A DNA stretch of 64,000 nt from Labrys monachus (GTDB lineage: Bacteria; Pseudomonadota; Alphaproteobacteria; Rhizobiales; Labraceae): contig NZ_JAUSVK010000001.1 in assembly GCF_030814655.1 (NCBI RefSeq), positions 1,693,501-1,757,500 on the forward strand, in the 5' to 3' direction. The stretch's first letter is position 1. Every line of letters begins with the position of its first letter. The translations under genes and the position numbers were made by a program. Of this stretch, positions 43,214 to 63,763 are shown piece after piece. The notes under the pieces are model-generated. The model did no database searches. It had not been told where the DNA came from and worked only from the letters and a program-made list of their open reading frames with translations.

Positions 43214-45131
43214 GTGCGCCCTGTAGGCGTGTTTCTCTAGTGGAGGTAGGTTCCACCCGGATAATAGTCGATAGGTTCGGTAGCTGACGAGCGGCTTGGC
43301 AGGGTAATCTGCTGGGTCGGAGCCTCGTGACAAAGGCCGCCTTGGGTGGCTGAGCGATCCGACGGGCCGTAATGTGAGTGAAGCCTGAGCAGGCCTCGAA
43401 AGGTGCGATGCGGATGCCGACCCGCCACGGTGATGGGGAAGGCAGTACGGACAGGGAAGCCATCGACACGTGCACCTGTTTGATCCGCCGGGGTATTGGG
43501 CACGGCACGCCGGAAGAGAGAGACGGGTCATCAGGGGAGACCCGCTGGTCGAGGATGATACCTCGCGCCGTCGCAGGGCGGTGGACCGAGCGGGAGTCGG
43601 AGAGGGGCGTAGTACTGTCGAAACCGGGTAATTGCGGTGGAGGGAAGGCCCCTTGCTTCAGATGCGCTTGTGAAGAAGGTGAGGATAGGGTGATTGGCGA
43701 TGAGCCTGGCAACACCGGATAAGATCAGGAACCTTCAGAGGAAGCTGTATTGCAAGGCGAAGGCGGAGCCTGCCTTCCGCTTCTATCTGCTCCACGACAA
43801 GATTTGTCGCGCGGACATTCTGGCTCATGCGTGGGCGTGTGCCCGTCACAATGGCGGGGCTCCGGGCGTGGATGGAGTGCACTTCGAGGACATTGAGCGG
43901 TCGGGGGTGGAGAAATGGCTGGCAGCCTTGCGGGAGGACCTTGCCTCGAAGAGGTATCGGCCCGAGCCGGTGCGGCGGGTGATGATCCCCAAGCCCGGTG
44001 GCGGGGAGAGGCCCTTGGGTATTCCCACGATCCGGGACCGGGTGGCCCAGACTGCTGCCAAGCTGGTGCTGGAACCGATCTTTGAGGCAGATCTGGAAGA
44101 CAATGCCTATGGCTATAGGCCCAAACGAAGCGCGCTCGATGCCATCACGCAGACCCATCGGCTGATCCGACAGGGGTATACGGATGTCGTCGACGCCGAT
44201 CTGTCGAAATACTTCGACACGATCCCGCATGCGGAGCTCCTCAAATCGGTGGCTCGCCGTATCGTTGACCGGCATGTTCTGCATCTGATCAAGATGTGGC
44301 TTCGTGCTCCGGTCGAGGAGCGGGATGGTGGTGGTATCCGGCGCATGAGTGGCGGCAAGAGCAACAAGCGAGGCACGCCGCAAGGCGGCGTTGTCAGCCC
44401 GTTGCTTGCCAACCTCTATATGAACCGGTTCCTGAAGTATTGGCGGAGGCAAGGATGCAGTCGGGCGTTCCGTGCGCATCTGGTCAACTATGCCGATGAC
44501 TTCGTCATCCTCAGCCGCGGGCATGCGCCTGAGGCTCTCGCGTGGACGAGGGCAGTGATGATCAGGCTTGGGCTGAGCATCAACGAGGCGAAAACCTCGG
44601 TGAAGGATGCCGGCGCGGACAGCTTCGACTTCCTCGGCTACACGTTTGGTCCGAAGTTCCGGAAACGGGATGGCCAGAGGTATTCGGGCGCAAGTCCCTC
44701 CAGAAAGAGCGTGAAACGGATCAAGACCAAGATCGGTGACCTTCTGGTGCCAGGCAACAAGGGAGCATGGCCAGACGTGCGCGACAGGCTGAACGGTCTT
44801 CTGACTGGCTGGTCGGCGTATTTTGGCTATGGCACCCGGGCTGCGGCCTATCGGGCCATCGATCGGCACATCTGTGATCGCGTCAGACGCTTCCTCGCCA
44901 AGCGGCACAAGGAAGGTGGACGAGGAACGCGGCCCTTCCCCTGGAGAGAAATCTTCGGGACACTCGGGGTCAAGCAACTCACCACGACGCCGAAGGCAAC
45001 CGCCGTGAGCCTGCAATGAAGTCTGTCGGAAAGCCGGATGCGGGAAATCCGCACGTCCGGTTTGATGAGCGGGGAAGGGAAACGGGGCGTTGCCGAACGG
45101 CACAAGCTACCGCGCCCTTCCTCGACTCTAC
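43214..45131 (+). mobile_element. Group II intron 1 with reverse transcriptase
   Basis: The 5' end GTGCG at 43214 matches the start of intron 2, and conserved domain I wording (GACAAAGGCCGCC, GTAATGTGAG, GCCTGAGCAGGCCTCGAAAG) is shared. Domain V is the stem AAAGCCGGATGCGGGAAATC (45030-45049) with its complement following, then domain VI to CTCGACTCTAC at 45131. The 5' exon ends CACTGTCACCGT and the 3' flank is AATT, exactly as in the uninterrupted site near 63183. The 1918-nt element looks complete and capable of splicing. Confidence 0.88.
43700..45019 (+). CDS. ltrA: Group II intron reverse transcriptase/maturase (intron 1)
   Basis: 439 aa from the ATG at 43700. The RT core is intact: IPKPGGGERPLGIPTIRDRV, DADLSKYFDTIPH, GTPQGGVVSPLLANLYMNRF, and the catalytic YADD in LVNYADDFVIL. 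The maturase X domain contains GLLTGWSAYFGYG. There is no HNH endonuclease, so retrohoming would depend on replication forks or single-stranded targets. About 75-80 percent similar by eye to the RT at 49221. Confidence 0.94.
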   Translation: MSLATPDKIRNLQRKLYCKAKAEPAFRFYLLHDKICRADILAHAWACARHNGGAPGVDGVHFEDIERSGVEKWLAALREDLASKRYRPEPVRRVMIPKPGGGERPLGIPTIRDRVAQTAAKLVLEPIFEADLEDNAYGYRPKRSALDAITQTHRLIRQGYTDVVDADLSKYFDTIPHAELLKSVARRIVDRHVLHLIKMWLRAPVEERDGGGIRRMSGGKSNKRGTPQGGVVSPLLANLYMNRFLKYWRRQGCSRAFRAHLVNYADDFVILSRGHAPEALAWTRAVMIRLGLSINEAKTSVKDAGADSFDFLGYTFGPKFRKRDGQRYSGASPSRKSVKRIKTKIGDLLVPGNKGAWPDVRDRLNGLLTGWSAYFGYGTRAAAYRAIDRHICDRVRRFLAKRHKEGGRGTRPFPWREIFGTLGVKQLTTTPKATAVSLQ

Positions 45132-45135
45132 AATT

Positions 45136-45239
45136 GGAAAGCCGGATGCGGGAAATCCGCACGTCCGGTTTGATGAGCGGGGAAGGGAAACGGGGCGTTG
45201 CCGAACGGCACAAGCTACCGCGCCCTTCCTCGACTCTAC
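45136..45239 (+). repeat. Extra copy of intron domains V-VI, joined to ardC exon
   Basis: This 104-base segment repeats 45028-45131 exactly, with AATT (45132-45135) between. It ends CTCGACTCTAC and is followed at once by the ardC codons GTG CCG GTG CTG. It therefore looks like the 3' end of a second intron, once inserted in ardC, left behind when the rest was lost. Confidence 0.8.
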
Positions 45240-45824
45240 GTGCCGGTGCTGCGCACCTTTTCCGTCTTCAACGTCGACCAATTCGAGAAACTTCCCGAGA
45301 AGTTTTACGAGCAGGCGGAGCCGAAGCCAGAGGATGAGAAGTTCGATGCCGGTGTGGCGTTCTGCAAAGACACGCGGATCAACACCCACTTTGGTGGGAA
45401 CAAGGCCTGCTACCACGTCAACCGCGACTACATCGACATGCCGACCTACGGCAGCTTCGAGAGTGACGACACGTTCTTCGGTACCTGGTGCCATGAGCTG
45501 ATCCATGCCACCGGCCACAAGGAGCGGCTGGCACGCCAGTACGGCTCCCGGTTCGGAGATAGCGCCTACGCTTTCGAGGAATTGGTGGCGGAGCTGGGAA
45601 GCGCGTTCCTTTGCGCACAGTTAGGCTACCTGCCTACGACCCGGACGGCGGCGAGCTACATTGCTCACTGGCTGAAGGTTTTGGAAAACGACCACAAGGC
45701 CGTCGTCAGCGCCGCGAGCTACGCTTCCCACGGGGCGCGGTGGCTGGAGGAGCAGGCTTACCACGCGGTTCATGACGATACGCCGGAACCCGAACGCGAA
45801 GACGACCTAGTTGAGGTTGTATAG
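45240..45824 (+). pseudogene. ArdC-like antirestriction / zincin metallopeptidase, 3' exon only
   Basis: The frame starts at the intron 3' junction: VPVLRTFSVFNVDQFEKLPE ... FGGNKACYHVNRDYIDMPTYGSFES ... FGTWCHELIHATGHKERLAR (HExxH zinc site) ... AFEELVAELGSAFL, and ends at 45824. This is the C-terminal zincin domain of ArdC proteins carried on plasmids and conjugative elements, which protect incoming DNA from restriction. The N-terminal ssDNA-binding domain is absent from the window, so the gene is broken unless trans-splicing occurs. Confidence 0.85.
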
Positions 45825-45830
45825 CGAATT

Positions 45831-45861
45831 GCCCTACCTGGTGGAGGTAGGGCATTTTTTT
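45831..45861 (+). terminator. Rho-independent terminator after ardC
   Basis: GCCCTACC and GGTAGGGC form a perfect eight-base stem around TGGTGGA, followed by A and seven T residues. It lies seven bases after the ardC stop. Confidence 0.9.
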
Positions 45862-62901: not shown

Positions 62902-63046
62902 GACGCCTCCCGTGCTAGAAGATTTTCGTGAAAGATCCGATATAAAAGCCCAAAATCAACTTTATCGCGTCGGCAGCAAACTTTCGAGCGTCTGTTTTAC
63001 AGGGCAATCGGGTGAAGAAGTAGGTGACAAAGCGTTGATGTCAGGG

Positions 63047-63247
63047 TCATCGCATTTGGCCGATGATGGATCTTGCGAAGTCGTTGGACCATCCTGATCG
63101 TTTTCGTTTGCGGCGGACGGAGATGCCCGGGCGCGCTTGGTTCAGGATGTTCAGGGCGAGCTTGCGCAAGGTTGTCAGAATTACGGTGACAGTGCATTTG
63201 ATTTGTCGCCACCCCCGAGTGTACTGTTCCTGCCGATATGATCTCGC
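63047..63247 (-). pseudogene. ISAs1-family transposase, C-terminal remnant
   Basis: Reading the minus strand gives KCTVTVILTTLRKLALNILN, QARPGISVRRKRKRSGWSND, FARSIIGQMR-stop, the conserved C-terminus of ISAs1 transposases. The rest of the gene is gone. It contains TGCACTGTCACCGT followed by AATT, which is the uninterrupted target of intron 1 (site between 63182 and 63183). Confidence 0.8.
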
Positions 63248-63288
63248 TGCCGTTGAGCCAGCATTCACGGCCCCGATTCGCCATTGCC

Positions 63289-63537
63289 CTAAGCCGCTGT
63301 CCTGGCCGGGTGGGTCGCATCGCCTCGGCCCGCGAGGAGGCCGCTGATCGAGACATCTTCGTCCAGGGCGTCCCAATGGATGCCCCGCCGGCTCAACTCG
63401 TAATTCTCGCGTTCCTGCGGGGTGGCGTGAAGCAAGCGGGGGAACCAAGCGAGCGGCACGCCGATCGTCCGGCCGTCTTCCAGTTCAACCCATAGGCAAT
63501 CGTCGTCGAAGCGCAGGGCTCTAGGCGAAATACTCAT
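63289..63537 (-). CDS. DUF2442 protein
   Basis: 82 aa from the ATG at 63537, which overlaps the DUF4160 stop by 17 bases. ALRFDDDCLWVELEDGRTIG, VPLAWFPRLLHATPQERENY is the DUF2442 pattern. DUF4160-DUF2442 pairs are common on mobile DNA and are thought to be toxin-antitoxin-like, without proof. A 5' fragment of the same gene lies at 48635. The C-terminal end is beside the ISAs1 relic. Confidence 0.87.
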   Translation of the reverse strand: MSISPRALRFDDDCLWVELEDGRTIGVPLAWFPRLLHATPQERENYELSRRGIHWDALDEDVSISGLLAGRGDATHPARTAA

Positions 63538-63763
63538 TCCACGCCCTTTCCAATTGAACGCGATGGTCTTCAACCATGCGTTGGACGCGATTCAGCGACC
63601 TAGCGTCAAGGCCATCATTATACGACAGGGACACGGCCGGCGTCAGCCAGAACTTGGCTTCGTCTCTGCCCCGCCGGACGTGGATATGCGCGGGCTCGCG
63701 CGGGTTTCCTTCGTTCGAATAGAAAAAGAAGGTGAAACCATCGAGCCGCAGGACGACAGGCAT
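63521..63763 (-). CDS. DUF4160 protein
   Basis: 80 aa from the ATG at 63763. MPVVLRLDGFTFFFYSNEGN, PREPAHIHVRRGRDEAKFWL is the signature of DUF4160 (an EPxHIHV core). It is translated with the overlapping DUF2442 gene. A 3' fragment of a second copy lies at 48528-48651. Function unproven. Confidence 0.88.
   Translation of the reverse strand: MPVVLRLDGFTFFFYSNEGNPREPAHIHVRRGRDEAKFWLTPAVSLSYNDGLDARSLNRVQRMVEDHRVQLERAWNEYFA

Follow-up and report, generated by a model that had tools for sequence, protein, structure and literature searches.

The 64,000-nucleotide stretch of Labrys monachus DNA analysed here (the window; bases 1693501–1757500 of one 6.92-Mb contig) carries, at positions 43214–63778, two full-length group II introns that we call A and B, several intron tails and two blocks of cargo genes (block 1 between the introns, block 2 next to uvrB). 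We think it probable that this locus is a patchwork of three separate causes and not two copies of one cargo cassette. Both introns would retrohome to one short motif resembling a repetitive extragenic palindrome (REP), which they would recognize by pairing of their exon-binding site 1 (EBS1) with intron-binding site 1 (IBS1) of the 5′ exon; the 3′ side of uvrB would be a variable spot for mostly defence-type cargo in this genus, block 2 being its occupant here; and identical intron copies would act as substrates for homologous recombination. A preliminary description of this DNA had seen two blocks built to one plan. Its pieces were mostly real (the two introns, the tails, ArdC, the RelA/SpoT protein, AlbA_2 and the DUF pair), and the common plan was not, since the blocks differ in gene content, in the orientation of the DUF pair and in the state of their introns (full introns against one truncated tail). 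The genome of the window (G000) was compared with four congeners (G001–G004, assemblies of 20, 140, 2 and 60 contigs); genus and family searches gave the same five genomes, one per species. The introns, the motif and the sequences that touch them are:

43199–43213, plus strand: REP-like motif ATGCACTGTCACCGT, the 5′ exon of intron A, with IBS1 TCACCGT
43214–45131, plus strand: group II intron A, full length (Rfam RF02003 and copy comparison)
43427–43433, plus strand: EBS1 of intron A, ACGGTGA, pairing with IBS1 at 7/7 positions
43694–45019, plus strand: intron A reverse transcriptase (RT)/maturase, 441 aa, RVT_1 + GIIM (domain search)
45132–45135, plus strand: AATT, start of the intron A 3′ exon (the remainder of the motif is AATTC)
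45136–45239, plus strand: second D5-D6 tail, 100% identical to the intron A tail, fused exactly to ArdC
48712–48727, plus strand: REP-like 5′ exon of intron B, ending in GTAATTC (IBS1)
48728–50654, plus strand: group II intron B, full length (Rfam RF02003 and copy comparison)
48941–48947, plus strand: EBS1 of intron B, GGATTAC, pairing with GTAATTC at 7/7 positions, one of them a G-T pair
59797–60300, minus strand: relic of a REP-associated tyrosine transposase (RAYT)-like gene, 69% identical to a G004 gene, ending where the next intron tail starts
60305–60503, plus strand: 5′-truncated A-type intron tail, 3′ exon AATTAG
63178–63197, minus strand: unoccupied REP-like motif ATGCACTGTCACCGTAATTC, an exact joint target of A and B, near an ISAs1 relic

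Ribozyme domains D1–D4 and D5-D6 are present in both introns, with RF02003 (97.5 and 94.5 bits for the two full introns) and RF00029 above their gathering scores, and Rfam places D5-D6 tails at 45029–45131, 45137–45239 and 50552–50654. The encoded RTs score 356.6 (A) and 345.3 bits (B) on TIGR04416, the model for intron RTs (cut-off 300), and GIIM scores 43.8 bits in the intron A RT (cut-off 23). D5 presumably has an AGC-type triad. A and B are about 76% identical to each other, and their best named relatives elsewhere reach 75% over the whole RT and up to 77% over parts. Copy counts are lower bounds throughout, as at most 40 candidates per genome were scored. G000 holds at least four full copies of A, three of them (5032859–5034776, 5538934–5540851 and 6092411–6094328) about 100% identical to the window copy, and at least seven of B (beyond the window at 5030927–5032853, 5037309–5039235, 5537002–5538928, 3677787–3679713, 3680463–3682389 and 2208751–2210677). 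No A or B copy was found in any of the four congeners except for one 78-nt match in G004. These near-identical copies and their absence from the congeners lead us to predict that A and B are mobile introns able to splice and retrohome, and both appear to have multiplied recently in this lineage.

The two introns enter one joint target, CACCGT-AATTC, five bases apart: A after CACCGT and B after AATTC (the form of the target sequence for both introns is CACCGTAATTC). All four A copies are preceded by ATGCACTGTCACCGT or a variant of it with 1–2 changes and followed by AATT or GATTC, and B copies are preceded by GTAATTC or a variant; the motif or a degenerate form of it stands before 5/7 B copies, and the other two stand behind A in arrays. 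EBS1 lies directly after a D1 landmark that is 202–205 nt from the intron start, and the pairing of the loop at this fixed position was measured in A, B and related introns (79 related loci, 59 of them scanned for ends, 24 with a head 482–490 nt before the RT match taken into the test; in one of these, L092, a D1 loop could not be located, and its removal left 23 relatives). In these 25 introns, not all of which are independent because some relatives share a site, the loop pairs with its own 5′ exon at a mean of 6.44 of 7 positions; 10,000 shuffles gave a mean of 3.32 and a maximum of 4.6. Exchanging the exons of A and B lowers the pairing from 7 to 3 and 2. Thus A and B each show EBS1-IBS1 pairing with their own insertion site. 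By eye, some of the relatives' introns appear to sit in IS5 or IS110 coding sequence.

Tandem A-AATTC-B arrays occur at two places in the genome (5.03 and 5.54 Mb), and in them the EBS1 of B, standing behind A, pairs at only 5/7 positions. Insertion of B first and then of A would explain these arrays, because the target of A survives upstream of an inserted B. Sites occupied by B would in this way remain targets for A, truncated copies would leave D5-D6 tails behind, and intron ends would consequently be common in intergenic variable DNA.

The motif itself is repeated and has transposase neighbours. Searched with up to 3 mismatches, ATGCACTGTCACCGTAATTC has 16 sites in G000 and the reversed control has 0; a variant motif pattern has 15 sites in G000 and 4, 1, 4 and 6 in G001–G004. 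Two paired copies facing opposite ways fold into long hairpins and a single copy does not. In G004, 40 nt separate one copy from the start of a RAYT gene that follows it (Y1_Tnp 33.5 bits, cut-off 23; NF047646 67.5 bits, under the cut-off of 80), and two G001 copies lie behind RAYT-like sequences, these being identified by DNA similarity alone. We label the motif no more than REP-like, since its copy number is low and its mobilization by a RAYT is putative. Several points weigh against the REP connection: it consists of these three motif copies beside RAYT-like sequences; the 15–16 copies in G000 are far fewer than the more than 100 per genome given as usual for REPs in the excerpt of PMC2817692 used here; and in G002 the reversed control and the motif each have one site (the control has none in the other genomes). 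The idea that the motif is the end of an IS21-type element was dropped once the motif was found beside RAYT-like genes, and a reading of the hairpin targets in terms of integrons/attC or class IIC introns was rejected.

The second cause concerns the right end of the locus, where comparison with relatives defines a border:

63824–64000, minus strand: 3′ end of uvrB, where synteny with all four congeners starts

Alignment with all four congeners begins at 63823–63828, the end of uvrB. Three of them (G001–G003) share about 7.5–12.4 kb of aligned sequence to the left of uvrB and then differ next to it, over about 1.4 kb in G002, 2.4 kb in G003 and 2.5 kb in G001. The G003 cargo is a retron St85-family RT plus effector, both above NCBIfam cut-offs; the G001 cargo includes an RT closest to defence type UG17 (PADLOC, E 7.8e-37); the G002 cargo includes Hypoth_Ymh and DUF5343 proteins that match candidate defence families (E 2.8e-14 and 1.1e-20); and G004, without the shared left flank, has an ankyrin protein (E 3.8e-13). 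At E 0.01 all six congener cargo proteins have a PADLOC match, versus 1/10 neighbouring proteins, which were picked by the analyst. In G001–G003, as in a defence hotspot, the flanks are conserved and the defence genes that they enclose differ; the matches other than the G003 retron are candidate or weaker ones. The G001 RT (L161:4432–5757, 441 aa) also reaches only 122.6 of the 300 bits that the model for group II intron RTs requires, and its assignment as a defence-type RT is not firm.

Two observations count against a defence spot that includes G000: among ten proteins of its own blocks, PADLOC matches PDC-S33 alone at E 0.01, which is no more than the control rate, and conserved flanks on both sides are confined to G001–G003, G000 having one on the uvrB side only. 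Block 2, left of uvrB, has no match in the four congeners (among the matches listed and on the fetched stretches), block 1 cargo has no listed match in any of them, and the congeners' block left of uvrB, searched for in G000, is absent (best match 67%); the cargo is variable, as had been anticipated. Its breakpoints had been expected in intron 3′ ends. The left sequence shared by G001–G003 runs in G002 and G003 to just beyond CACTGTCACCGTAACCC, where there is no intron of the A or B family, and in G001 to about the end of the preceding gene. The edges seen by comparison are the uvrB stop on the right and, in G002 and G003, the REP-like motif on the left; one join, that of an intron tail to ArdC, falls exactly at an intron 3′ end. 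An intron-bounded variable island of one plan is not shown here, and the lineage-specific DNA ends on the right at the uvrB stop (63824). Where the G002 cargo begins on its left (L159:17744–17876), the motif and the end of the preceding lipoprotein-like gene are tandemly repeated with a 114-nt unit.

Evidence for the third cause comes from elsewhere in the genome. A locus that is contiguous in three of the four congeners (G001, G002 and G003), where its halves X and Y are separated by a 200–201-nt spacer, lies in G000 in two places 3.33 Mb apart (X 5526393–5536908, Y 2208313–2208688). X keeps the congeners' order along 10 kb and ends 93 nt short of the 3′ end of the B copy in the 5.54-Mb array, and Y homology stops 62 nt before the 5′ end of the B copy at 2.209 Mb. 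The two B copies face opposite ways, with the polarity that an inversion requires, and if an inversion between them is undone, the G001–G003 order returns, with one B in the spacer. A place picked at random would fall no more than 93 nt from one of the 18 outer intron-unit ends with a probability of about 2.4e-4 before polarity is considered, a value that covers the second end only, as the first was chosen because an intron was there. An intron-intron inversion between these B copies probably took place.

There are six intron places outside the window; four were compared with relatives, a fifth (the 5.54-Mb array) was met from its 3′ side, and a number of observations tell against the inversion or limit its reach. 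In G004, Y is present but the 10 kb fetched next to it contain no X, and this part of G004 is itself rearranged; no outgroup thus settles the ancestral order. The gene-order evidence covers one of the two sides of the inversion, and the joined X and Y flanks give a spacer of 155 nt, not 200, with poor alignment at the insertion point. An assembler could make a false join at identical 1.9-kb repeats, and the result would look the same. At 5.03 Mb both flanks of the A+B array keep their order in G004, a simple insertion, so that not every intron copy marks a rearrangement. The congeners' block left of uvrB, searched for in the same way, has no counterpart in G000. As for two further sites, the flanks of B at 5.037 Mb fall on two G004 contigs, and the A copy at 6.092 Mb has on its 5′ side core DNA found in 4/4 congeners and on its other side DNA found only in G000.

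Other repeats and intron arrangements were noted in passing. Two B copies at 3677787–3682389 of G000 face away from each other with their 5′ ends about 750 nt apart and similar 5′ exons, and one 3′ end of this pair abuts an inverted intron A head of about 50 nt. The stretch 24715–25831 is a repeat of about 1.1 kb in which no gene is obvious; at least 15 copies of a 0.76-kb part are present in the genome, several of them within a few kb of intron sites or fragments (2.21, 3.68, 0.556, 5.64 and 6.20 Mb). An 81-nt repeat (51744–51824 and 53388–53468, 86% identical) lies in an oxidoreductase-like open reading frame (ORF; GMC type by eye) and in a fragment to the left of that ORF.

The cargo of block 1 is:

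45240–45824, plus strand: ArdC-like anti-restriction protein, C-terminal part only
45920–46576, plus strand: protein with I78-like C-terminal stretch, AT-rich (21.8 bits, under the cut-off of 23.6)
46605–47153, minus strand: lysis-like genes (spanin-like ORF 46605–46901, overlapping ORF 46648–46911, small ORF 46911–47153)
47403–48467, minus strand: RelA/SpoT-domain protein (46.1 bits), PADLOC candidate defence family PDC-S33
48531–48699, plus strand: partial, inverted copy of the DUF4160/DUF2442 pair, 169 nt, 94% identical to 63473–63641

The cargo of block 2 is:

60764–61717, minus strand: AlbA_2 (Schlafen-type) domain protein (54.8 bits)
61837–62901, minus strand: partner protein of AlbA_2, 354 aa
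63033–63172, minus strand: ISAs1 transposase relic, ISAzs11-like, 85.5–87% identical to ISAzs11-type copies
63289–63778, minus strand: DUF4160/DUF2442 pair, intact, adjoining uvrB

The ArdC protein has an MPTase-PolyVal domain (146.8 bits) and lacks its N-terminal part, because its match to phrog_7245 starts at profile position 120 of 324. The I78-like stretch of the next protein scores below the cut-off, as listed, and the "HTH protein" placed in block 2 (63 aa) has no Pfam match above cut-off. The spanin-like ORF matches phrog_1275 (E 0.0016), and ORF 46911–47153 has no family match; by eye, the same-strand overlapping ORFs at 46605–46911, one with a lipoprotein-like LTGC motif, look like an embedded spanin pair. 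The RelA/SpoT protein is full length on PDC-S33 (positions 7–342 of 349, E 3.2e-98) and is by sequence a candidate defence protein. An origin of block 1 as a piece of a plasmid or phage was rejected, there being two weak plasmid matches and only distant relatives of the RelA/SpoT protein in 5 phage records. In block 2, both DUF4160 and DUF2442 domains are present in the intact pair, and the DUF4160 protein is a weak match to the DhiT toxin model NF048015 (26.9 bits, under the cut-off of 100), too low for a DhiT/DhiA toxin-antitoxin assignment. For the 354-aa partner a single plasmid-borne relative (37%) was found, on Sinorhizobium meliloti pSymA. Its surroundings look defence-like, with genes for a 1714-aa protein, a caspase-family protein, a pYEATS protein and type I restriction nearby. 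None of its neighbours is annotated as AlbA_2, and the idea that AlbA_2 and the partner form a conserved pair was therefore rejected.

A broken DUF pair in block 1 and an intact one in block 2 had been described correctly, the former being the inverted 169-nt copy listed above. The ISAs1-like scrap that was also assigned to block 1 was not recovered: ISAs1 homology is found only in block 2, and the best match of its ISAs1 stretch within 43000–50700 is 34 nt at 82%, falling at the REP-like motif, so the supposed scrap is this motif. The AT-rich character claimed for the cargo holds, against a window GC fraction of 0.633, for the I78-like (0.489), RelA/SpoT (0.430), AlbA_2 (0.496) and partner (0.497) genes; ArdC (0.601), the lysis genes (0.587) and the DUF pair (0.612) are only slightly under the mean.

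How far did the introns themselves shape the two blocks? That they bound a variable island here, with cargo exchanged by recombination between intron tails, was the proposal of the preliminary description, and we regard it as quite improbable. Intron ends or tails do lie at the left of both blocks, the tail-ArdC join (45239/45240) is exact at the intron 3′ end, with ArdC lacking its N-terminal part, and recombination between intron copies has support elsewhere in the genome. However, the border defined by relatives is the intron-free uvrB stop, the cargo of congeners at the same spot differs without these introns, and the ISAs1 scar said to be common to both blocks is not. Moreover, recombination between two A copies is disfavoured at ArdC because it would leave one tail, and not A, AATT and a second tail. 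The idea of introns as shared homology is supported by the split locus at the two B copies; neither the tail-ArdC join nor the 60305 tail demonstrates a cargo swap within the window. The tail-ArdC join, the sole such join in the window, is the only candidate for intron recombination having shaped blocks 1 and 2, and a 5′-truncated insertion or a join after AATT would fit it better than A-A recombination. Whether solitary tails are in general abortive, 5′-truncated retrotransposition products and not recombination scars is to us an evenly balanced question. Truncation is favoured by the count of fragments, five with a tail (two in the window, the others at 557858, 2913118 and 6210208) against one with a head (3682380; 2 more are internal), and by the start of the 45136 tail at D5, which is a strong structure. 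Three tails have intact 3′ ends (45239, 60503 and 558235), the end at 6210205 is degenerate and the 2913118 match stops short. On the other hand, the complete 5′ exon motif is present at none of the three 5′ junctions shown, and the 60305 tail starts where RAYT homology ends (60300), from which DNA loss at that point follows.

A doubtful alternative, to which we give somewhat more weight than to the tail-exchange proposal, is that the introns are passengers, which entered the REP-like motif earlier or later, and that this motif, insertion sequence (IS) elements or assembly error account for rearrangement and cargo turnover. The ending of G002 and G003 homology at a motif without an A- or B-family intron fits this, and core homology at 6.092 and 2.209 Mb ends about 102 and 62 nt before the intron and not at it. 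G000 has many near-identical repeats of about 1.07 and 1.28 kb, identical 1.9-kb introns invite misassembly, and X is not beside Y in G004 either. Against passengers stand the broken ends of one locus at the 3′ and 5′ ends of B copies in inversion orientation, with the low second-end chance given above. The patchwork of three causes remains the explanation that we prefer.

Each part of this patchwork is of a known kind, and the combination is unusual; in the open-access titles and abstract beginnings listed by our searches on such introns, REPs, rearrangement, RAYTs and uvrB-linked defence, no paper had this combination. According to the parts of PMC2882425 (PLoS Biol 2010) drawn on here, Thermosynechococcus elongatus intron families have diverged EBS and different targets, some copies lie within another mobile element, and one pseudogene is matched in one part by the 5′ exon of TeI4f and in another by the 3′ exon of TeI4g, which was read as exon-shuffling recombination between introns. 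The L. monachus introns resemble these in target divergence by EBS and in inferred inter-intron recombination, but here two families use one motif side by side and are not nested, and the recombination would be a 3.33-Mb inversion, judged from gene order in three congeners. According to the consulted section of PMC1525189 (BMC Genomics 2006), REPs are insertion sites of IS elements and of 2/9 group II introns of Pseudomonas putida KT2440, whereas here 4/4 A and 5/7 B copies stand behind the motif or a degenerate version of it and the matching EBS1 is identified. REP/RAYT and terminal inverted repeat (TIR) elements are characterized in the excerpted text of PMC3733652 (BMC Genomics 2013) as short palindromic repeats beside tyrosine transposase genes; the REP-like motif with its RAYT-like neighbours resembles these, in only 15–16 copies here and with putative mobilization. 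In Pseudomonas aeruginosa core defence hotspots, core genes flank loci with different defence systems (Johnson et al. 2023, PMC10250203, in the portion used), in comparison with which the uvrB spot belongs to a small genus seen in five genomes, with about 1.4–2.5 kb of cargo in three two-sided cases.

A wider and more speculative picture, which we consider unlikely as a whole, is that a transposase-linked palindrome serves as a landing pad split by two introns five bases apart, that such pads edge defence-rich spots, and that the introns as long repeats allow recombination to move defence cargo and invert megabases. If it were true, coupling of a REP-like element and an intron would set where the genome is rearranged. 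Intron target choice, as it can be read from EBS1, predicts where copies accumulate, and the copies probably mark a megabase rearrangement. Defence genes of this genus may be sought at the uvrB flank, and the PDC-S33 family protein and AlbA_2 with its 354-aa partner are uncharacterised candidates.

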